DNA of 64,000 nt from Paramarasmius palmivorus (Eukaryota; Basidiomycota; Agaricomycetes; Agaricales; Marasmiaceae). The DNA lies in NCBI GenBank assembly GCA_037176845.1, contig JAYKXP010000001.1:558001-622000 (forward strand). Direction: 5' to 3'. Shown here in pieces: positions 9,455 to 20,040 of this stretch. A program made the translations under genes and the position numbers. Within the stretch, counting starts at the first letter, position 1, and every line of letters starts with the position of its first letter. Below the pieces are notes generated by a model. The model was not told the origin of the DNA. It did no database searches and saw only the letters and a list, made by a program, of their open reading frames with translations.

Positions 9455-10830
9455 TTTGTGGGCGTTCCGACGAAGGTGTTAGCTTGTCAATAAAATTGGC
9501 TGAAAGTCCCGGTGAGTACCAAGAACGAAGGAGACAGTACATTCATCTCCAAGCCTTCTCCCTAGGTCGCAGCCTGCGAACCTTCAAGCTTTGAGCCGAA
9601 GAGTATCTGGATTCGCACTAGCAAAGCTGGAGGCAATACTACCAATGAATCGGCTGAGAAACATGAAAGAAGGAGAACATACCAATATCACATCCAAAGA
9701 CCACTGTGTCGATCCTCCTTCCAACATCAGACCCATAGTCATGACGAAGCCTGAGGCCTAGCCACCGCGCCAGCATTGAGATTTGTCCGACAATCAAGAA
9801 CAGGCTGCAGAAGAGCTTTACATTGGGAGAATTTGTCGCCCAAAGCTGGAGATAAAGGTATCAATGACTCGGCTCGTAAGGAACATGAAAGGTGTCAACA
9901 TACCATGTTTGGACTTTGAGAAATTCACATCGGTCCCCTTTTCAACACCAGCTTGAGGTTTGCCAGCCAATGCACAAGAAGTCTGGCTCAGTGCTTTACG
10001 TCCAAGTCGGGCATGGAGAAGGTTAACTGGCTAAGACTCCAAAGACATGGAAGGCGTCGATTTTCGTGGCCAAAAACTCCGAGTTAGATAGTCTAGGTGA
10101 GTACCCTTGAAGCTTGAAGAATGAATGGAACACATACATACATCTCCGAGCTCGAGCCCTTCTCCCGAACCTCCAAGCTTCAAGCCTGGGCCCTGAATGC
10201 AGTGGATAAAGTGGAGGTAGTAACAGGCATCAATGACTCGGCCAGGAATACGAAAGAAGGAGAACATACCGATATCGCATCCAAAGACCATTACATCAAT
10301 TCTCCTTCCAATGCCCCGTGGTCATGATGAATCCCTGCTCCAGCCACTGCTCCAGTCTCTAGGTTCGTCAACAACCAAGAACAACTTTCTGAAGGAGACT
10401 AAGACGTCAGAGCTCAGTTGACTCGGACTGCCGAGACTGACCTGAAAAGGTACCTCGAGAACGAATGACTCAACGGCCTATGTCAAACATATACATGCAT
10501 CTCCAAGTCTTCTCCCTAGGTTGCAGTCTGCTCACGAACTTTAAACCGAAAAATGCCTGGGTTCGAACTAGATAGAGATGAAGGTAATACTATCAACCAC
10601 TCGGCCAAGTAATACAAGGTGAACATACCAATATATCAGATCCAAAAAGCGTTGTGTTTTCGCCGAGGCAAGAGCAAACCCCATTCTGGTGCAGCAGCTG
10701 TACGTCGGATTGAACACGGACAGCCTCGTGATTCATGCTTCGTGATTCGTGGAGAATTCAGCTTAAAGCTTCAAAGACCACTGCTGAAAAGTGGGGCTGA
10801 AAAAGTCCAGGTGAGTACAAGGTTCTAGTA
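9455..10830. repeat. Degenerate tandem repeat, unit about 360 bp, 3-4 copies
   Basis: Recurring blocks in the same order. One block is like 'ccggtgagtacc' (near 9508, 10090, a weaker form near 10447, and 10808). A second is 'catctccaagccttctccctagg' (near 9545, 10140, 10498). A third is 'tcaatgactcggc...gaacataccaatatc.catccaaagacca' (near 9645, 9860, 10225, 10580). Successive 'gaacatacc' marks are about 219, 366 and 359 bp apart. On the minus strand two units read the related GRRIDTVVFGCDIG and GRRIDVMVFGCDIG before a GTATGTTC donor-like site. The copies have diverged and contain stops. The origin is unknown. Confidence 0.6.
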
Positions 10831-12343: not shown

Positions 12344-13905
12344 TTACACCACTGGTTCATCCTTCCATCCAATGTTAGCGTCGTCTACGGGGAAAGCTCG
12401 CCTCTAGGGTGTGAACCACCGTGTCAGTTTAACCATTTTCTTGGGCTATATAAGACTGAACTTACCACAGGCTCGTCCTTCCAACCAATGTTGGCGTCGT
12501 CGACATCCAGTGCACGCTTCTACGATAGACATCGTGTTAGCTGTCATCAATGACATTCAAGACCAGACCTACCACTGGTTCGTCCTTCCAGCCAATGTTG
12601 GCATCGTCAACGTCCACGGCCCGTCTCTGTTTGTGTAATGAGCACAGGCTTCTCAGACCGGACCGGGACATACCGTTGGCTCATCCTTCCATCCAATGTT
12701 AGCCTCGTCGACGGGGAGTGCACGTTTCTGCGTTTGCTTTTAGTCTTCGCTCTTGTGTCTCAGGAACTTTCACATACCACTGGCTCATCCTTCCACCCGA
12801 TGTTGGCGTCGTCGACGGGGAAGGCACGCTTCTACAGATATTCTCAGTGTGGTTCATGACATGAGAAATGTTACTAACCACAGGCTCATCTTTCCAACCA
12901 ATGTTGGCATCATCCACCGGGAAGGCGCGTTTCTAGTATCGTCGTCATGACCAAGATCAATGATGATGAGCAGGTTTCAACATACCACGGGTTCGTCTTT
13001 CCAGCCAATATTTGCATCATCAACGTCCAATGCTCGCCTCTGTTCGAGTAACGAGTTGATCTCATTAGGGCAAACAATGCTGGATCAAACACCTACCACA
13101 GGCTCATCCTTCCAGCCAATGTTGGCATCATCTACAGGAAAGGCACGTTTCTGGGGACCGTCGTCAATGCAAGCCAGGGTAGGCGAATTCGGACATACCA
13201 CGGGCTCGTCTTTCCAGCCAATATTTGCATCGTCGACATCCAATGCTCGCCTCTGCAGGTCGTGAATACGTGTTTGTCACGGGATGCAACGTGCTGAACG
13301 CATACCACAGGCTCATCCTTCCACCCAATGTTGGCATCATCAACTGGGAATGCACGCTTCTGTTGTCATTGTCAGCGATGATTGGTACCCACCATCATTG
13401 TGCATGCATACCACGGGCTCATCTTTCCAGCCGATGTTGGCATCATCAACTGGGAATACGCGCTTCTGTTGTCTGTGTTAGCACACGTTCTGTTTACCAG
13501 GCTTCAACGTACTACGGGCTCGTCCTTCCAGCCGATGTTTGCATCGTCAACAGGGAATGCACGCTTCTACCGGTGTCATCAGTATACCAGATGCGATACG
13601 CAACGAACCCTACATACTACAGGTTCGTCCTTCCATCCAATGTTCGCATCGTCGACCTCTAATGCACGTTTCTTCATCTGGCATTAGTACATGGTCTGGT
13701 GGTGAACGAGGACATTTAAACGTACAACTGGTTCATCTTTCCAACCGATGTTGGCGTCGTCGACTGCTAAACCTCGCTGTGGTCCAGTCAGTGCCATTCA
13801 TCTGATAAATGGTGTACATCCACTTACGGCTTCCCTTGTAGGGGCGCCAGACACACAGATGGCCAAAGCCAAAGTGAGCAATGCTAGGAGATTGAACTTG
13901 AACAT
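12344..13905 (-). CDS. Secreted Kex2-processed repeat peptide precursor, 14 repeats in 14 micro-exons (dikaritin/RiPP-like)
   Basis: Exon 1 (13828-13905) encodes a signal peptide, MFKFNLLALLTLALAICVSG, followed by APTREA. Then come 14 exons, each holding one repeat with consensus KRAFPVDDANIGWKDEPV. They lie at 13726-13776, 13618-13671, 13513-13566, 13412-13465, 13306-13359, 13199-13252, 13097-13150, 12986-13039, 12879-12932, 12778-12831, 12674-12727, 12573-12626, 12466-12519 and 12344-12403 (the last includes the stop). All internal exons are exactly 54 nt and phase 0; the first repeat exon is 51 nt. Introns are 47-62 nt. The total is 278 residues. Every repeat after the first opens with KR or RR, so cleavage by the Golgi protease Kex2 and trimming would give 16-residue peptides. 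The repeats contain Trp but no Cys or Tyr. Divergent UstYa-type genes nearby suggest oxidative modification. This reading is from the sequence; processing is inferred. Confidence 0.9.
12350..13776 (-). repeat. Exon-intron tandem array, 14 units with a period of about 101-116 bp
   Basis: Regularly spaced, highly similar 54-bp blocks separated by dissimilar 47-62-bp stretches. The block centre (reverse complement of 'tccttccagccaatgttggcatc') encodes NIGWKDE. The spacers begin with GT and end with AG when read on the minus strand, so they are introns. Blocks at 13199 and 12986 are almost identical to each other and differ from their neighbours (RRALDV type), which suggests duplication of a two-exon unit. 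Confidence 0.9.
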
Positions 13906-13957
13906 GTCGAGGATACAAAGAAGAGGATGATGTTCTGAAAGGCCAACTGTAAGCGGC

Positions 13958-13965
13958 CTTTTATA
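13958..13965 (-). promoter_or_regulatory. TATA box of the peptide precursor gene
   Basis: TATAAAAG on the minus strand, about 53 nt upstream of the precursor start codon at 13905, inside the 546-bp region shared with the divergent UstYa-type gene. Confidence 0.55.
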
Positions 13966-14451
13966 CAACAACAGCTCCCCAACTTACTTGTTGTGGGTAG
14001 TAATGCACCATATGGTCCATGAGGCCTTTTGCGAATGACTTTACAAGAATGGTGTGAAAGTTTGGTCGCCATACTGAATAGGGCGAATCGTGCTCCTCGA
14101 TTTACGGGGCGTAACGGGCATTCAGAGTAGCGAGAAGCCTGTAGTCTCGCTAGAACCCCGGGGTCACCGGGCGCGCGGAAAGCGGTTCGAAAGGCCACAA
14201 TGTGGCTCTGGATTACTGAGTACAACACGATAAGAAGTTGGATCACGAATTGATACTAATCCTACTATTCATCCAGGAATAAACCTAATAGTTCGGGGCA
14301 CAACATCATTCAAGTTATTTGATACCTCCGAGACTGGCCAGGTGAGCCTCTATCCGGGGAATAGGGCTTGTATTCGCTTATGATTCAGACTCATAGGTAG
14401 TCAAGCTTTCTTCAAAGCATACCGTCCTTTCCCCAGAAACACCCCAGCGAA

Positions 14452-15466
14452 ATGCAACCCGAAGAACGTCGTCTTCTTGTCCCCAGCGAAGGAGAGGATG
14501 TGGAAGGTCCTGAGCCTGCCATCAAGCATCGCACTAGTGGCGTCACGAAGTATGCACCGTCGTACAGGAGCCTATGGGTCCTAGTCGTCCTGCAGTCTGC
14601 GCTACTTCTGGCTTGCTTCACAGCTATTGCGATTTTGCTCAGGCGCGATCATGGTAGCCATTGTTCTTCCCGTGTTCTATACTGTAAGTGCTCAGTCCTG
14701 CAAACTTTTTACTTTGCACTCACACAGACAATTGTACAGCTCCTGCTCTCGATGCCGTTGAACCTCAGATCAAGGTCTTCAACGTAGGCTTTGAAGGAGA
14801 TCTGTCCCCCTACCAAATTCCGTCATCTCCTGAGCTTGACCGAGCATGGGACGACTTGTACCAATGTAGGTGTCATGAATACATTGCGAGCACTGCAACT
14901 CACGAAGGAAATGGACTACAGTCGGTATTTCTCGAATCACGAAGGAGGAAGCTACTCAATTGCCTAACAAGACGCAACCCATCCCCGGTGACGAAGATCA
15001 CTATATTGCTGAACTAGACGTCTTCCATAACCTACATTGTTTGGTAAGGCTGATGCTATGTGATGATTGCCTAGCCGGCTCATCCTTCTGCTAGAACATG
15101 GTACGAAAAGCTCTTGATCCGGTCTACTATTCGAATTGGAACATCACCGAGAACGCAAAGGCCGCTCAGCATGTCAGTCACTGCGTCGACTGGATACGCC
15201 AGTCTATTATGTGCCATGCAGATACCAGCGTTATTGTGTACGTTTCTTATTCTTGCTATCTAAGGTCCGTATTGATTTGATACAGGTGGCAATGGGAAGA
15301 CTGGGCCAACGAAACCCTCGTAAGGGGTAAAGTTGCGCACACTTGTCGCAATTTCGAAAAGATTCAGGATTGGGCAAAAGAACATCAGATTCTCGATAAA
15401 TTTGACGGTAGCGTTCATCTGACAGATGATATTACAATTCCTGTGCTACAGTCCGGTGATCTGTAA
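14452..15466 (+). CDS. UstYa-type (DUF3328) oxidase, copy 1
   Basis: Five exons: 14452-14683, 14728-14865, 14922-15043, 15095-15237 and 15286-15466. The N-terminus is cytosolic and polar (MQPEERRLLVPSEGED), followed by one membrane helix (LWVLVVLQSALLLACFTAIA). The luminal part has the family landmarks: LDRAWDDLYQFGISRITKEE, LPNKTQPIPGDEDHYIAEL, then both signature motifs HNLHC (split from NM by an intron) and HCVDWIRQSIMC, and finally VWQWEDWA and HTCRNF. UstYa-family proteins act on ribosomal peptide precursors in ascomycete ustiloxin, asperipin and phomopsin pathways, making side-chain macrocycles. A similar role on the divergent repeat precursor is inferred. The frame is intact throughout. 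Confidence 0.88.
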
Positions 15467-16163: not shown

Positions 16164-17134
16164 ATGTTCCGAAACTTGAACTCAACCTACAATCGTCTTT
16201 CTTCCAGCCCTGATTACGACGAAGAGGACCCCTTGGATGTAAAGAGCACATCCAAGCGGTCGTGGTGTTCACCTCGATTACTTTTACTAATCGTTCTGGT
16301 CGAATCAATCGTCCTAGTATGGGCTCTGTTGGGTCCCCCACACCCCCCTCTTAGGTGTCCTTCGGAGTCCACGCTTTTTTGTGCGTATATCAAGATCGGG
16401 TATTGATTTTTTGTTGATTCTCCACTAGCCCCAGCAAACGAAGCTGTCGAATATCACGTTAGGACGTTCACCTACGATCCTAAATTTCATCTACCTCCGT
16501 CAGACGAACTAGACGCCTATTGGCAGGAGTTATACAGCGGTATGTTGTTCCATTCCTGAGTCGAATGCTTTCCCTCACTTGAATTACAGTGGGCGTATCC
16601 AGGATACCCAAGAACCAGGCGGCCCTCCTGCCTAACAGGTCTGTGCCTATTCCCGGTGGATGAGGGTCACTACATCATCGAGCTCGATGTCTTCCACAAT
16701 TTGCATTGTCTGGTTAGTTGCTAGACGGAGCATCCCTGGTGCTGGGACTAATCGCATTCTGCAGAACATGATACGCCAGGCACTCCATTCAGATTACTAC
16801 GCTGACATGGCGATGAACGTAGATGACAACACAGGCCATGTAGACCACTGTGTCGATTGGATCAGACAGGCCCTCATGTGTGCAGGTGATACAAGTGCCA
16901 TTGTGTGGGTATTCAACTTCGTCCGCATATCTGTAAAGAGCAACACTGAATACTAGCCTCATCAGATGGGGATGGGAAGAGAAAGAACAGAAGAACAAGT
17001 TCCGCAAAGAGATTGCGCACACATGTCGGGATTTTGGGAGAATTCGTGAATGGGCAGTGAAACATCGATTAACCAACTATGATGCCTCAATCCGAACGGA
17101 TGACGATGGTATTGTCATTCCTATCATCCATTAA
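16164..17134 (+). CDS. UstYa-type (DUF3328) oxidase, copy 2, with an apparent frame break
   Basis: Same exon plan as copy 1: 16164-16380, 16429-16539, 16590-16712, 16765-16904 and 16966-17134. It has a short polar N-terminus, a membrane helix (LLLLIVLVESIVLVWALLG), then DELDAYWQELYS, VGVSRIPKNQAALLPNRSVPIPG, HNLHC, NMIRQALHSDYY, HCVDWIRQALMC, VWGWEEKEQ and HTCRDF. In exon 3 the expected PIPGDEGHYI is reached only by ignoring one extra G at about 16658-16659. As written, the frame hits TGA at 16660-16662, before both signature motifs. Either the gene is inactivated or the base is an error. Downstream exons look fully conserved, which favours an error or a very recent break. Confidence 0.8.
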
Positions 17135-18677
17135 TATTCATGTACCGCATTTCATTAGTTAATCCAAGCTCCTGGTCTGCTCGCACTAGATTACATCGTG
17201 GTTTCCGATACAGGTGTACGCTCACGAGATTCCAGCGTGTGCCTTGTTCATTTAACTTCATTTAGCAGGTGATTAACTTACGAAAGTCTCTGTCGTCTTC
17301 AGCTTGTATCGGAGAGCGATTACTAGTAAAGGGAATGAGAGTCCGATTTGAAGAGAACCGGCTTGGGTTGGGCTCGATCTGGAAGGTCTCGTTCGCCCGC
17401 CTGAGCGCCGAGTTCTCGTCAGATGAGCAAGATTGGTACGTACTTCACACCGTGACTGTATCGCCCTCATTCGCCACGCGTGTAGAAAATCTTAGCCAGA
17501 CTACTCTGCTTGATATTCGGATTCATGCTAGCATTCCTATCCGCCTCGCATATTGAGAACGCTATCTTGAAGAATGAAGAGTGCTTCGGCGGGTGGGTAA
17601 GAAAGTAAGTTGTTGGGAGAATGGAGGAAGGTTAAACGTTGATGGCAGGAGCTGTCAGGGCTCCGACGAGTTGCCCGTGTTGTCATGCACTCGGGCCCGT
17701 TGTACCTAACACCACTGTGTCCTCCTGGACATCCAGCATCCATGATCCATTTCCACGGTACTGGCAGAACCAAGGCAGGAGTACCGACGGATACTATTTC
17801 TGTAGAGGTTATCAGGCATTCTACCTAAACTCCTCATAATACATGCCGAATGGAACGGACAGTTCAAAGGTTTTGAAGGGCCATCCGCAACGGGCTCAAG
17901 CACCTGCCTTTCAGAAAGGATGAGGGATTTCGCTTGAAAGTTTTACAGTTGGTGAGATGTTTGAACGTTTGACTGATTGACCTTTGCATTTAGTAAAGCA
18001 CCACCAACACGTTTATTGACAGATCTTTGTCGCAATGACCCCACCAGGATGATGAAGCTTTTTCACTCGAAATCACTCAGCTTGTACAGTGGCGGAACGC
18101 AGGGAATGCGTATACGACAAGAAGTCCCGATAAACCTGAGTTGGTTAGGATGCAGTACCCTCGAAGGGAAGCTCTGGGCCTGGCGTATTTATGTCGGAAA
18201 TCTTCACAAACCGTCAAAGGCGCTGCGCTTGGAGATATCCACCAATGGAGTTGATTGAGGTATGTCGGAGCTCGCTTTGGGGAGGAAATGCTAATCTGAT
18301 CCTCGGATATGAACGAAAATCTGTAGTCAACAGTCCCGCGATGCAAATACGATATGCACAAGATACACACTATGCTTGAAACCTGTCTGGTCGATTCTCA
18401 AGAGTATGTGGTTGACGAAAAGACTTCCCAATATGCATATTGCTACGACGCACTAGCATACTACCTCTCGAGCCATTATTTTACACCCTGTTATCGTGCC
18501 AATCCCGCGGAGCTATCACCTGCTGGTCATCCCGATATCATACGTTTCATTCCATATCTGGGGCTTCGGTTCCAGTGGAATCTCATAACTTCCCTCTATG
18601 TCGCCCAAAAACCAAAGACTCCGCGGACTTCCCTTTTTTCCTTCTTTCCTTGTGTCGTGGGGTACCGGCTGCAAAAC
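17135..18677. other. No supported gene
   Basis: Small frames on both strands (for example 17269-17556 and 18354-18677) lack motifs. The frame at 18354 only runs into the start of the F-box gene. Further cluster genes such as a peptidase or methyltransferase are not seen here. Confidence 0.45.
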
Positions 18678-20040
18678 ATGTCCACGACAGCGCCAGCGCT
18701 GCCTGCATTCACAGGGTTCGCACACTCTGACTTCCCACCGACAGTCCTTTCTGCCATACTCGCGTATACCGTCCAAAGGAAACGTCTTCGATTTGCGCAC
18801 CTGCGAAGCCTCATTCTCAGAGGCCTACAGGGTAAGCCAAGTGTGCAGACGATGGCGAGACGTTGCTCTGGCTACACCCGAAATATGGGCCACCATTTCG
18901 ATCCACTCAGTGGATGGTGAGTGGCGCTCTGGAGTCTTGAAGCACCTCAAGGCGCATATCGATCGTTCCAACGGTGTGTTGTTAAATGTCGATGTCGAGA
19001 CGGACGAAATATCGAACGATCAGTTTTTTCTTGCGCCATTTCGGAATATGCTGAGCCGATTGGGATCCCTGCACCTTCATACAGGAAAGCAGAGCGCTGA
19101 TACGGACTGCATCGTCAGCAAATATCTTCGCATTGCTCCCAAGGTTCGGATTGTGACGCCAGATCACTGTATAGAGGTCAAAACGAACGACCAAAGGCAG
19201 ATGTTCTCGGTTACTTTTCTTCCAACCTTATTTTACACCACTCCTTCTCAGCTCGCAAAGGCTCCACTCCTGGCTTCTAGGGCGCACATAACCCATCTCC
19301 ATATTAAATGTAACTGGCAAACAGCATTTATTCTACTCGGAGATTGCCCGAATATATTTTTGGCGCACTTTATTATTCCACCTTATGGCTTCGCAGAAGC
19401 GCCGTCATCCACAAAGCTGTATTGGGCGACGGTCAATCATCTCATAATTCCTTCGCTCAGGCACCTCACCATCCAAGTCCTCCATGCCTTTCTCCCCGGC
19501 CACGATTATCCATTCCCATCCGTCACCACTCTCCTCGACGCATTGAGCACACCCTCTCTGGCATCGTTCTCGCTGATCTCTGATGCCAATCAAAACCCGC
19601 ACTCCATCTATCCTCCTCCGAATGCACAGTTTCTTGAAGCTCTGCCGAGTTTCCTGTACCGGTCTTCTCCTCGCATACAACGTGCATGTATCGAGGGCGT
19701 TCCCATATCAGGATTCGAGATCGTACTCGTAATAAAAGCCATGCAATGGCTAACGGAATTGAAGCTGAGGGAGGCGAAGGGACGTACCAACAAGCTAGTA
19801 ACAACAGCTTTTCTGGGTTTGTTGGCTAGTCCCGCATTACCTTATAATGGTGCGGTACAACTTTTGATCGAGTTAGAGCTTGCGTCATACTGATGATATT
19901 CAGTACTAGTGCCTCGACTCAAACACCTTCATCTAGAGGTGAATGATGATGGATGGGATAGTGGTGCCCTTGAGGATATGTTGGAAGTGAGGTTCAAGCG
20001 GGGGCTCAGGTCGAGCGTTGTCGGGATAACGCCTGGGTAG
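18678..20040 (+). CDS. F-box protein (Agaricomycete type), frame broken inside the F-box
   Basis: The start at ATG 18678 gives MSTTAPALPAFTGF, then the F-box opening FPPTVLSAILAYTV. The continuation (KGNVFDLRTCEASFSEAYRV, then SQVCRRWRDVALATPEIWATI) is in another frame, and the change falls near 18771-18780. The rest is a leucine-rich-like C-terminal region (SLHLHTGKQ, ITHLHIKCNW, LRHLTIQVLHAFLPG, LTELKLREA). An intron at 19850-19903 joins LPYN to VLVPRLKHLHLEVNDDGWD; the stop is TAG 20038-20040. F-box proteins are substrate adaptors of SCF ubiquitin ligases. The target is unknown, and this family is large and fast-evolving in mushrooms. The single frame change suggests a pseudogene or a consensus error. 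Confidence 0.7.

Follow-up and report, generated by a model that had tools for sequence, protein, structure and literature searches.

The dikaritins (ustiloxin, phomopsin, asperipin-2a and victorin) and the epichloecyclins derive from secreted precursors in which multiple copies of a peptide are separated by KR or RR, or in dikaritins also by KK. A UstYa (DUF3328) gene lies beside the dikaritin precursor gene, two UstYa paralogues being present in ustiloxin biosynthesis, and a tyrosinase is required for ustiloxins and phomopsins (PMC7329392). In the dikaritin products described, the link is made through Tyr or Phe (PMC9233826), Phe being the site in victorin. In KEX2-processed repeat proteins (KEPs; Le Marquer 2019, Umemura 2020, Vogt 2022) a signal peptide is likewise followed by repeats bounded by dibasic sites, and the precursors are reported to be cut by KEX2 at these sites in the Golgi and then trimmed by KEX1. 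DUF3328 proteins are reported to be indispensable for cyclizing the ustiloxin, asperipin-2a and phomopsin cores. Precursors of this kind with a linked UstYa gene are already known and have been counted in Basidiomycota too: Umemura (2020) found 103 of 1680 Basidiomycota KEPs near DUF3328 genes and, as one of two explanations for so few, proposed that KEP cyclization "might hardly occur" (PMC7329392). Here, we analyzed a 64,000-nt stretch of contig JAYKXP010000001.1 of the mushroom Paramarasmius palmivorus (Agaricales, Marasmiaceae), referred to as the window, and describe a 15-exon gene on its minus strand (13905 to 12344) that shares the features of a secreted multicopy precursor. The gene probably encodes the precursor of a UstYa-modified ribosomal peptide, because it contains 14 units in symmetric exons with KR or RR pairs between them, because a divergently oriented UstYa gene (UstYa-A) lies beside it, because six further loci in the genome have the same head-to-head arrangement, and because a VDxxNxxW motif is kept in four of the genome's precursors and in Mycena relatives.

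The gene consists of one signal-peptide exon and 14 single-repeat exons, with a coding length of 837 nt including the stop, giving a protein of 278 amino acids. All 14 introns are GT-AG introns of 47 to 62 nt in phase 0. Exon 1 (MFKFNLLALLTLALAICVSGAPTREA, 13828 to 13905) encodes the hydrophobic N terminus MFKFNLLALLTLALAICVSGA, which by inspection of the sequence appears to be a signal peptide, and a TATAAA box (13960 to 13965, minus strand) lies 60 nt before the ATG. Exons 2 to 15 each carry one copy of the unit (KR/RR)xxxVDDANIGWKDEPV. The consensus, KRAFPVDDANIGWKDEPV, is found in exons 4 (13513 to 13566), 6 (13306 to 13359), 8 (13097 to 13150), 10 (12879 to 12932) and 11 (12778 to 12831), which hold repeats 3, 5, 7, 9 and 10, and RRALDVDDANIGWKDEPV is found in exons 7 (repeat 6, 13199 to 13252) and 9 (repeat 8, 12986 to 13039). 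The remaining units are those of exon 2 (repeat 1, RGLAVDDANIGWKDEPV, 13726 to 13776), which lacks the dibasic pair, exon 3 (repeat 2, KRALEVDDANIGWKDEPV, 13618 to 13671), exon 5 (repeat 4, KRVFPVDDANIGWKDEPV, 13412 to 13465), exon 12 (repeat 11, KRALPVDEANIGWKDEPT, 12674 to 12727), exon 13 (repeat 12, RRAVDVDDANIGWKDEPV, 12573 to 12626), exon 14 (repeat 13, KRALDVDDANIGWKDEPV, 12466 to 12519) and exon 15 (repeat 14, RRAFPVDDANIGWKDEPVV, followed by the stop, 12344 to 12403). The internal repeat exons are 54 nt long (the first, 51 nt), and each is a self-contained cassette that begins with the dibasic pair, except in the first repeat exon. A splice-chain script returned the same 15 exons, apart from a possible alternative acceptor for exon 3 lying 6 nt further upstream; its weights were taken from this precursor and UstYa-A, with a motif bonus, so that the agreement tests consistency and provides no independent evidence. 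A Pfam search of the precursor gave no family above its cutoff.

An initial annotation of the window had proposed a 15-exon transcript with 14 repeats, and its coordinates and counts proved right. NIGWKDEP is invariant in all 14 copies, which are spaced 101 to 116 nt apart, and VDD is present in 13 of the 14, the sole exception being the VDE of exon 12. As also described there, KR or RR opens each of the 13 repeats after the first (13 of 14 copies in all), and the residues immediately following the pair are AF, AL, AV or VF. The DNA pattern of the core repeat occurs 14 times in the 68.3-Mb genome, always at this gene, and the reversed control pattern does not occur. Trp is found in all 14 repeats, Phe in only 7 and Tyr in none.

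Comparison of the copies in all 91 pairs gave a synonymous difference per site of 0.825 and a nonsynonymous difference of 0.014 for the core; for the whole unit, the values were 0.789 and 0.071. The variable residues are those just after the dibasic pair (AFP, ALD, ALE, AVD, ALP or VFP, and GLA in the first copy). The 13-residue core VDDANIGWKDEPV is near-fixed, its two substitutions (D to E and V to T) falling in exon 12, and the intron interiors show similarity barely above that of shuffled sequences. Synonymous sites have reached saturation with little change in the core, which indicates that the copies are old and that purifying selection acts on the core. The precursor thus offers a clear natural example of duplicated exons that are under selection.

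The precursor and UstYa-A are divergently transcribed, with 546 bp between their start codons (13906 to 14451), a stretch that is probably a promoter common to both. UstYa-A (14452 to 15466, plus strand) has five exons (14452 to 14683, 14728 to 14865, 14922 to 15043, 15095 to 15237 and 15286 to 15466) and encodes 271 amino acids that match PF11807 (UstYa/DUF3328) with an E value of 2e-53 and 181.9 bits (cutoff, 25). Two HxxHC motifs are present, HNLHC at residue 155 and HVSHC at residue 186. The intron phases are 1, 1, 0 and 2, in contrast to the uniform phase 0 of the precursor. UstYa-A corresponds over its full length to VNI00_000166 of P. palmivorus, with 98% identity and models that differ at one exon edge. 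The structural model of this database copy has a mean pLDDT of 79.5 and one N-terminal helix resembling a transmembrane helix, and neither Foldseek nor VIA-align ranked a solved relative of it with confidence. A second UstYa gene, UstYa-B, follows on the plus strand (approximately 16164 to 17131), where it matches in pieces. These pieces correspond to the UstYa-B gene of another locus, C26, and the frame changes near 16.65 kb within one exon that is open in C26. The frame change may be a sequence error or the mark of a dead gene, and we left the sequence unmended. The second UstYa gene of a further locus, C84 (UstYa-B, L013), also reads poorly in the same stretch.

The genome contains at least 36 UstYa matches. 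DNA was examined around every listed match, with unequal flanks for the two classes into which the loci were sorted (mostly about 7 to 10 kb on each side in class 1 and mostly 7 to 10 kb in all in class 2); every UstYa-linked precursor found lies within 2 kb of its UstYa gene. Sorting was done first by motif and then by a tree of UstYa fragments, which separates the same two classes with support of 0.84 to 0.93, the two interrupted UstYa-B genes being left out. After merging of alleles (C31 with C85, 99% alike; C99a with C199, 96% alike with many gaps; C205a with C152, 90% alike over 5.2 kb), there were eight class 1 loci (window, C84, C26, C31, C99b, C21, C99a and C56) and seven class 2 loci (C205a/C152, C205b, C11, C103, C5a, C5b and C49). 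A repeat-array scan detected Trp-containing, intron-split arrays at six of the eight class 1 loci, and a targeted look at C99a located a reduced precursor in which one unit, DTPFDNKTWFKRE, is clear. No precursor was found at any of the seven class 2 loci. The association of Trp precursors with class 1 (7/8 versus 0/7) has a Fisher p of 0.0014, or of 0.007 when the targeted C99a case is left out (6/8 versus 0/7). With the same scan setting, no array of three or more units was detected in 96 first-order resampled loci. All seven UstYa-linked precursors stand head to head with the UstYa gene, with 354 to 1778 bp between start codons that were chosen by eye. A TATAWW box is located 43 to 82 nt before the ATG in six of these seven (not in C31) and also in the C18 precursor, a further member of the family; such a box is present in 7% of random 100-nt windows of the 64-kb stretch. 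The C99a precursor lies at L017:5330-5677 on the minus strand, and its C199 counterpart (L022:200-1900) is full of small indels, indicating either a decayed allele or poor sequence. Class 2 UstYa-like genes are mostly paired, one with HxxHC and the other with FHQLRC, FHQLEC or similar (L027 and L030 to L036).

The exon structure of five other precursors of the P. palmivorus genome was read from gene models that were guided by motif bonuses or picked by eye. The C99b precursor has 6 exons and 5 units and that of C21 has 8 exons and 8 units, with one unit per exon and phase 0 in both. The C84 precursor has 16 exons, all in phase 0, with one or two units per exon and an uncertain last exon, and the C26 precursor has 9 phase 0 exons with mostly two units each. 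In C31, there is one IFAxxAW-type unit per exon, not all boundaries are in phase 0 and the model is less certain. Because the repeat exons are symmetric, duplication, loss or skipping of an exon would leave the reading frame and the Kex2 sites intact, and copy number could therefore change easily. One explanation for the architecture is that exon skipping is its purpose, yielding proteins with differing copy numbers. Many short symmetric exons also encode the secreted products of schistosome micro-exon genes, which are likened to the present gene by architecture alone; in the present gene, a single repeat exon corresponds to one unit of a Kex2-type precursor. That each of the 13 internal repeat exons has a length divisible by 3 and is in phase 0, and that the C84, C26, C99b and C21 models are symmetric too, would agree with this explanation. 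However, tandem exon duplication also leaves symmetric exons, and skipping would hardly alter the identity of a product whose copies have nearly the same core, and we therefore consider this explanation highly improbable.

In the window, C84, C26 and C18 precursors, Asp occupies position -6 and Asn position -3 relative to 50 of 51 Trp residues each, and position -7 is Val in 50 cases and Ile in 1, defining the motif VDxxNxxW. The units of C21, C99b and C99a are looser, being rich in Asp and Asn, followed by W and KRE. The C18 precursor (L029:2951-3527, minus strand) is a small secreted protein with the units VDSTNSGWV, VDPCNNWHV and VDACNNGWTV and a TATA box. At C31 and C85 (L010 and L012), allelic precursors with several IFAKTAWEDA-type units bounded by basic pairs lie beside a UstYa gene.

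The initial annotation had suggested a search for the repeat in other fungi. The window precursor alone had no match at an E value of 1 or less among 7993 candidates scored, but a profile built from five precursors retrieved six proteins with E values of 0.1 or less among 7994 candidates. These were from Mycena leptocephala, M. vulgaris, M. kentingensis and M. albidolilacea, and two were from JGI contigs. They contain VDxDNxSWxIG-like repeats, with Asp at -6 of 48 of 63 Trp residues and Asn at -3 of 52 of 63, and each sequence has 5 to 16 DxxNxxW motifs, compared with at most 2 in shuffled sequences. The profile retrieved no P. palmivorus protein, although UstYa proteins of that genome were in the database; the precursors of the window, C84 and C26 are of a length covered by the search, and none of them was found in annotated form. 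The M. albidolilacea protein, P0126, is named a Mur ligase; its C-terminal part is a VDxxNxxW repeat precursor, so that it is apparently two genes fused by annotation. The JGI relatives might be products either of spliced transcripts or of genes with few introns.

The M. kentingensis precursor, MKEN_00537300, lies on a 4,011,168-bp contig; the contig of the UstYa genes MKEN_00537600 and MKEN_00537700 is equal in size, and the three locus tags are close together. In a tree of the 120 UstYa proteins listed among 204 matches, MKEN_00537600 falls with the C26 UstYa-B in a 19-member B clade (support, 1.0), and MKEN_00537700 lies nearer to UstYa-A from the window and from C26. A module of precursor, UstYa-A and UstYa-B therefore appears, from these sequences, to be present in two families, the Marasmiaceae and the Mycenaceae. 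The reading of the window gene as a multicopy secreted precursor, made in the initial annotation, is supported by our analysis and strengthened by the adjoining UstYa genes and by the similar precursors in the genome and in Mycena.

The repeats could instead form a stable, uncut secreted or wall-bound protein in which the dibasic pairs are incidental. Dibasic pairs are indeed scarce in some relatives, with 1 per 16 Trp units in C26 and 1 per 17 Trp residues in M. leptocephala. In the window gene, however, all 13 repeats that follow the first have a dibasic pair at the same edge of the exon, and the near-fixed 13-residue core, the freer flanks and the linkage to UstYa better fit a substrate than a structural repeat. 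We regard an uncut protein as very unlikely. The predicted cutting by Kex2, which the initial annotation had also inferred, thus has good support in the window gene but lacks it in some relatives.

If the gene encodes the precursor of a UstYa-modified peptide, as we favor, the precursor would enter the secretory pathway, where a kexin would cut after KR or RR and a Kex1-type enzyme would trim the ends. Two kexin-type P_proprotein loci (PF01483) are present in the genome, both on C58 and identified from the P_proprotein domain. Up to 14 peptides would be produced, most of 16 residues, such as AFPVDDANIGWKDEPV, for which the computed [M+2H]2+ is 886.928; the values for two other predicted peptides, ALDVDDANIGWKDEPV and VFPVDDANIGWKDEPV, are 878.923 and 900.944. 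A membrane-bound UstYa in the same compartment would then oxidize the core. The invariant Trp is the most likely site, because it is the only aromatic residue in all 14 copies. Such oxidation may join Trp to a nearby residue or desaturate it, and oxidation without ring formation is possible. Chiang, Ohashi and Tang reportedly described a copper-dependent DUF3328 enzyme in JACS in 2025, which could bear on the question of Trp.

Several observations weigh against this interpretation. The described dikaritins are linked at Tyr or Phe, whereas the window core has no Tyr, and none of the 16 tyrosinase matches in the genome is on C1, the contig that carries the precursor. Because both a Tyr core and a tyrosinase on this contig were looked for and neither was found, we do not class the precursor as a dikaritin; it differs from them also in its basidiomycete origin, its Trp core and its single exon per copy. 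Unless the break in UstYa-B is a sequence error, a pathway that needs two enzymes may not function at this locus. No precursor was in view at the class 1 locus C56, and the C18 precursor is an orphan family member with no UstYa match in the 6 kb around it. The C31 units (IFAKTAWEDA) lack VDxxN and have only Trp and an acidic tail in common with the others, and the scarcity of dibasic pairs in C26 and M. leptocephala counts here as well.

Another explanation is that the gene encodes an ordinary KEP, which gives rise to linear, barely modified signal or interaction peptides, and that UstYa acts elsewhere or is defunct. The KEP peptides of Coprinopsis, Lentinula and Pleurotus have a linear form with minimal modification, and six kep knockouts of C. 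cinerea had no apparent phenotype (PMC9769878); the broken UstYa-B of the window would also fit. In contrast, all seven UstYa-linked precursors are head to head with UstYa while the other class has none at its seven loci, and the pairing recurs in Mycena. Furthermore, unlike in KEPs of the alpha-pheromone type, the window repeats have no XA or XP dipeptides of the STE13 type between the Kex2 site and the core. These observations suggest that a plain KEP is an unlikely, though not negligible, alternative to the UstYa-modified peptide.

We also put forward, tentatively and as rather doubtful in its full extent, a broader proposal: that the Marasmius-Mycena mushrooms may make a whole class of DxxNxxW peptides in which UstYa oxidizes Trp (for example, by an Asp/Asn-to-Trp or Lys/Ile-to-Trp link), with copy number written exon by exon, and that micro-exons may hide this class from protein-based surveys, hence the published suggestion that cyclized KEPs are scarce in Basidiomycota. 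Single copies as single exons may be the reason that such surveys overlook the class, because the survey of Umemura (2020) was based on annotated proteins (PMC7329392) and our searches gave no annotated protein corresponding to the window gene. In the available text of PMC7329392 and PMC6339444, there is no mention of "intron" or "exon," and "intron" occurs once in PMC9769878, in the methods. In contrast to the few linked KEPs counted by Umemura, seven precursors adjoin UstYa genes in this one mushroom genome. If UstYa does act on Trp, its chemistry would be wider than Tyr and Phe, and the A- and B-clade UstYa proteins with their VDxxNxxW cores would be a ready set of paired enzymes and substrates for testing.

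Searches of the open-access literature (titles, abstract starts and passages, with subscription papers mostly outside) returned no mushroom UstYa precursors with one repeat per exon, no Trp-type UstYa products from mushrooms and no paper that contains one of the five peptide strings queried. Judging from these searches, the new features are the VDxxNxxW family, the link between this family and A/B UstYa pairs, the divergent gene order and the encoding of single copies as single exons. Among other mushroom peptides, MSDIN precursors are short, single core and cytoplasmic, and in borosins, the core is fused to a methyltransferase. Unlike the precursors of amatoxins and borosins, that of the window has a signal peptide, 14 copies and a UstYa partner. 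The amatoxins and phallotoxins resemble the predicted product in being ribosomal mushroom peptides with a cross-linked Trp, joined to Cys in their case (PMC9233826). The plant BURP-domain copper cyclases, which make burpitides, also cross-link aromatic side chains and have been grouped with UstYs (PMC12186524); they are plant proteins of a different enzyme family and are set beside UstYa by function alone. In Pleurotus, fruiting bodies express UstYa-like genes, with 16 genes of which 6 are developmentally expressed (PMC8893723). P. palmivorus has been listed with other fungi that cause cacao thread blight (PMC8581569), and for this reason, a role of the peptide in plant or microbial interactions is possible.

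Ten selected open frames flanking the cluster were searched against Pfam. A RING finger, a PIN domain and an F-box were identified, the other seven frames gave nothing, and no other tailoring gene was recognized among the ten. An open frame with an F-box-like domain at 18589 to 19890 (plus strand), just past the cluster, probably marks its outer border. On the other side, a gene-poor region that adjoins the cluster (9538 to 10606) contains several dispersed direct repeats of 32 to 68 nt that are 63 to 90% alike and are perhaps the remains of mobile elements.
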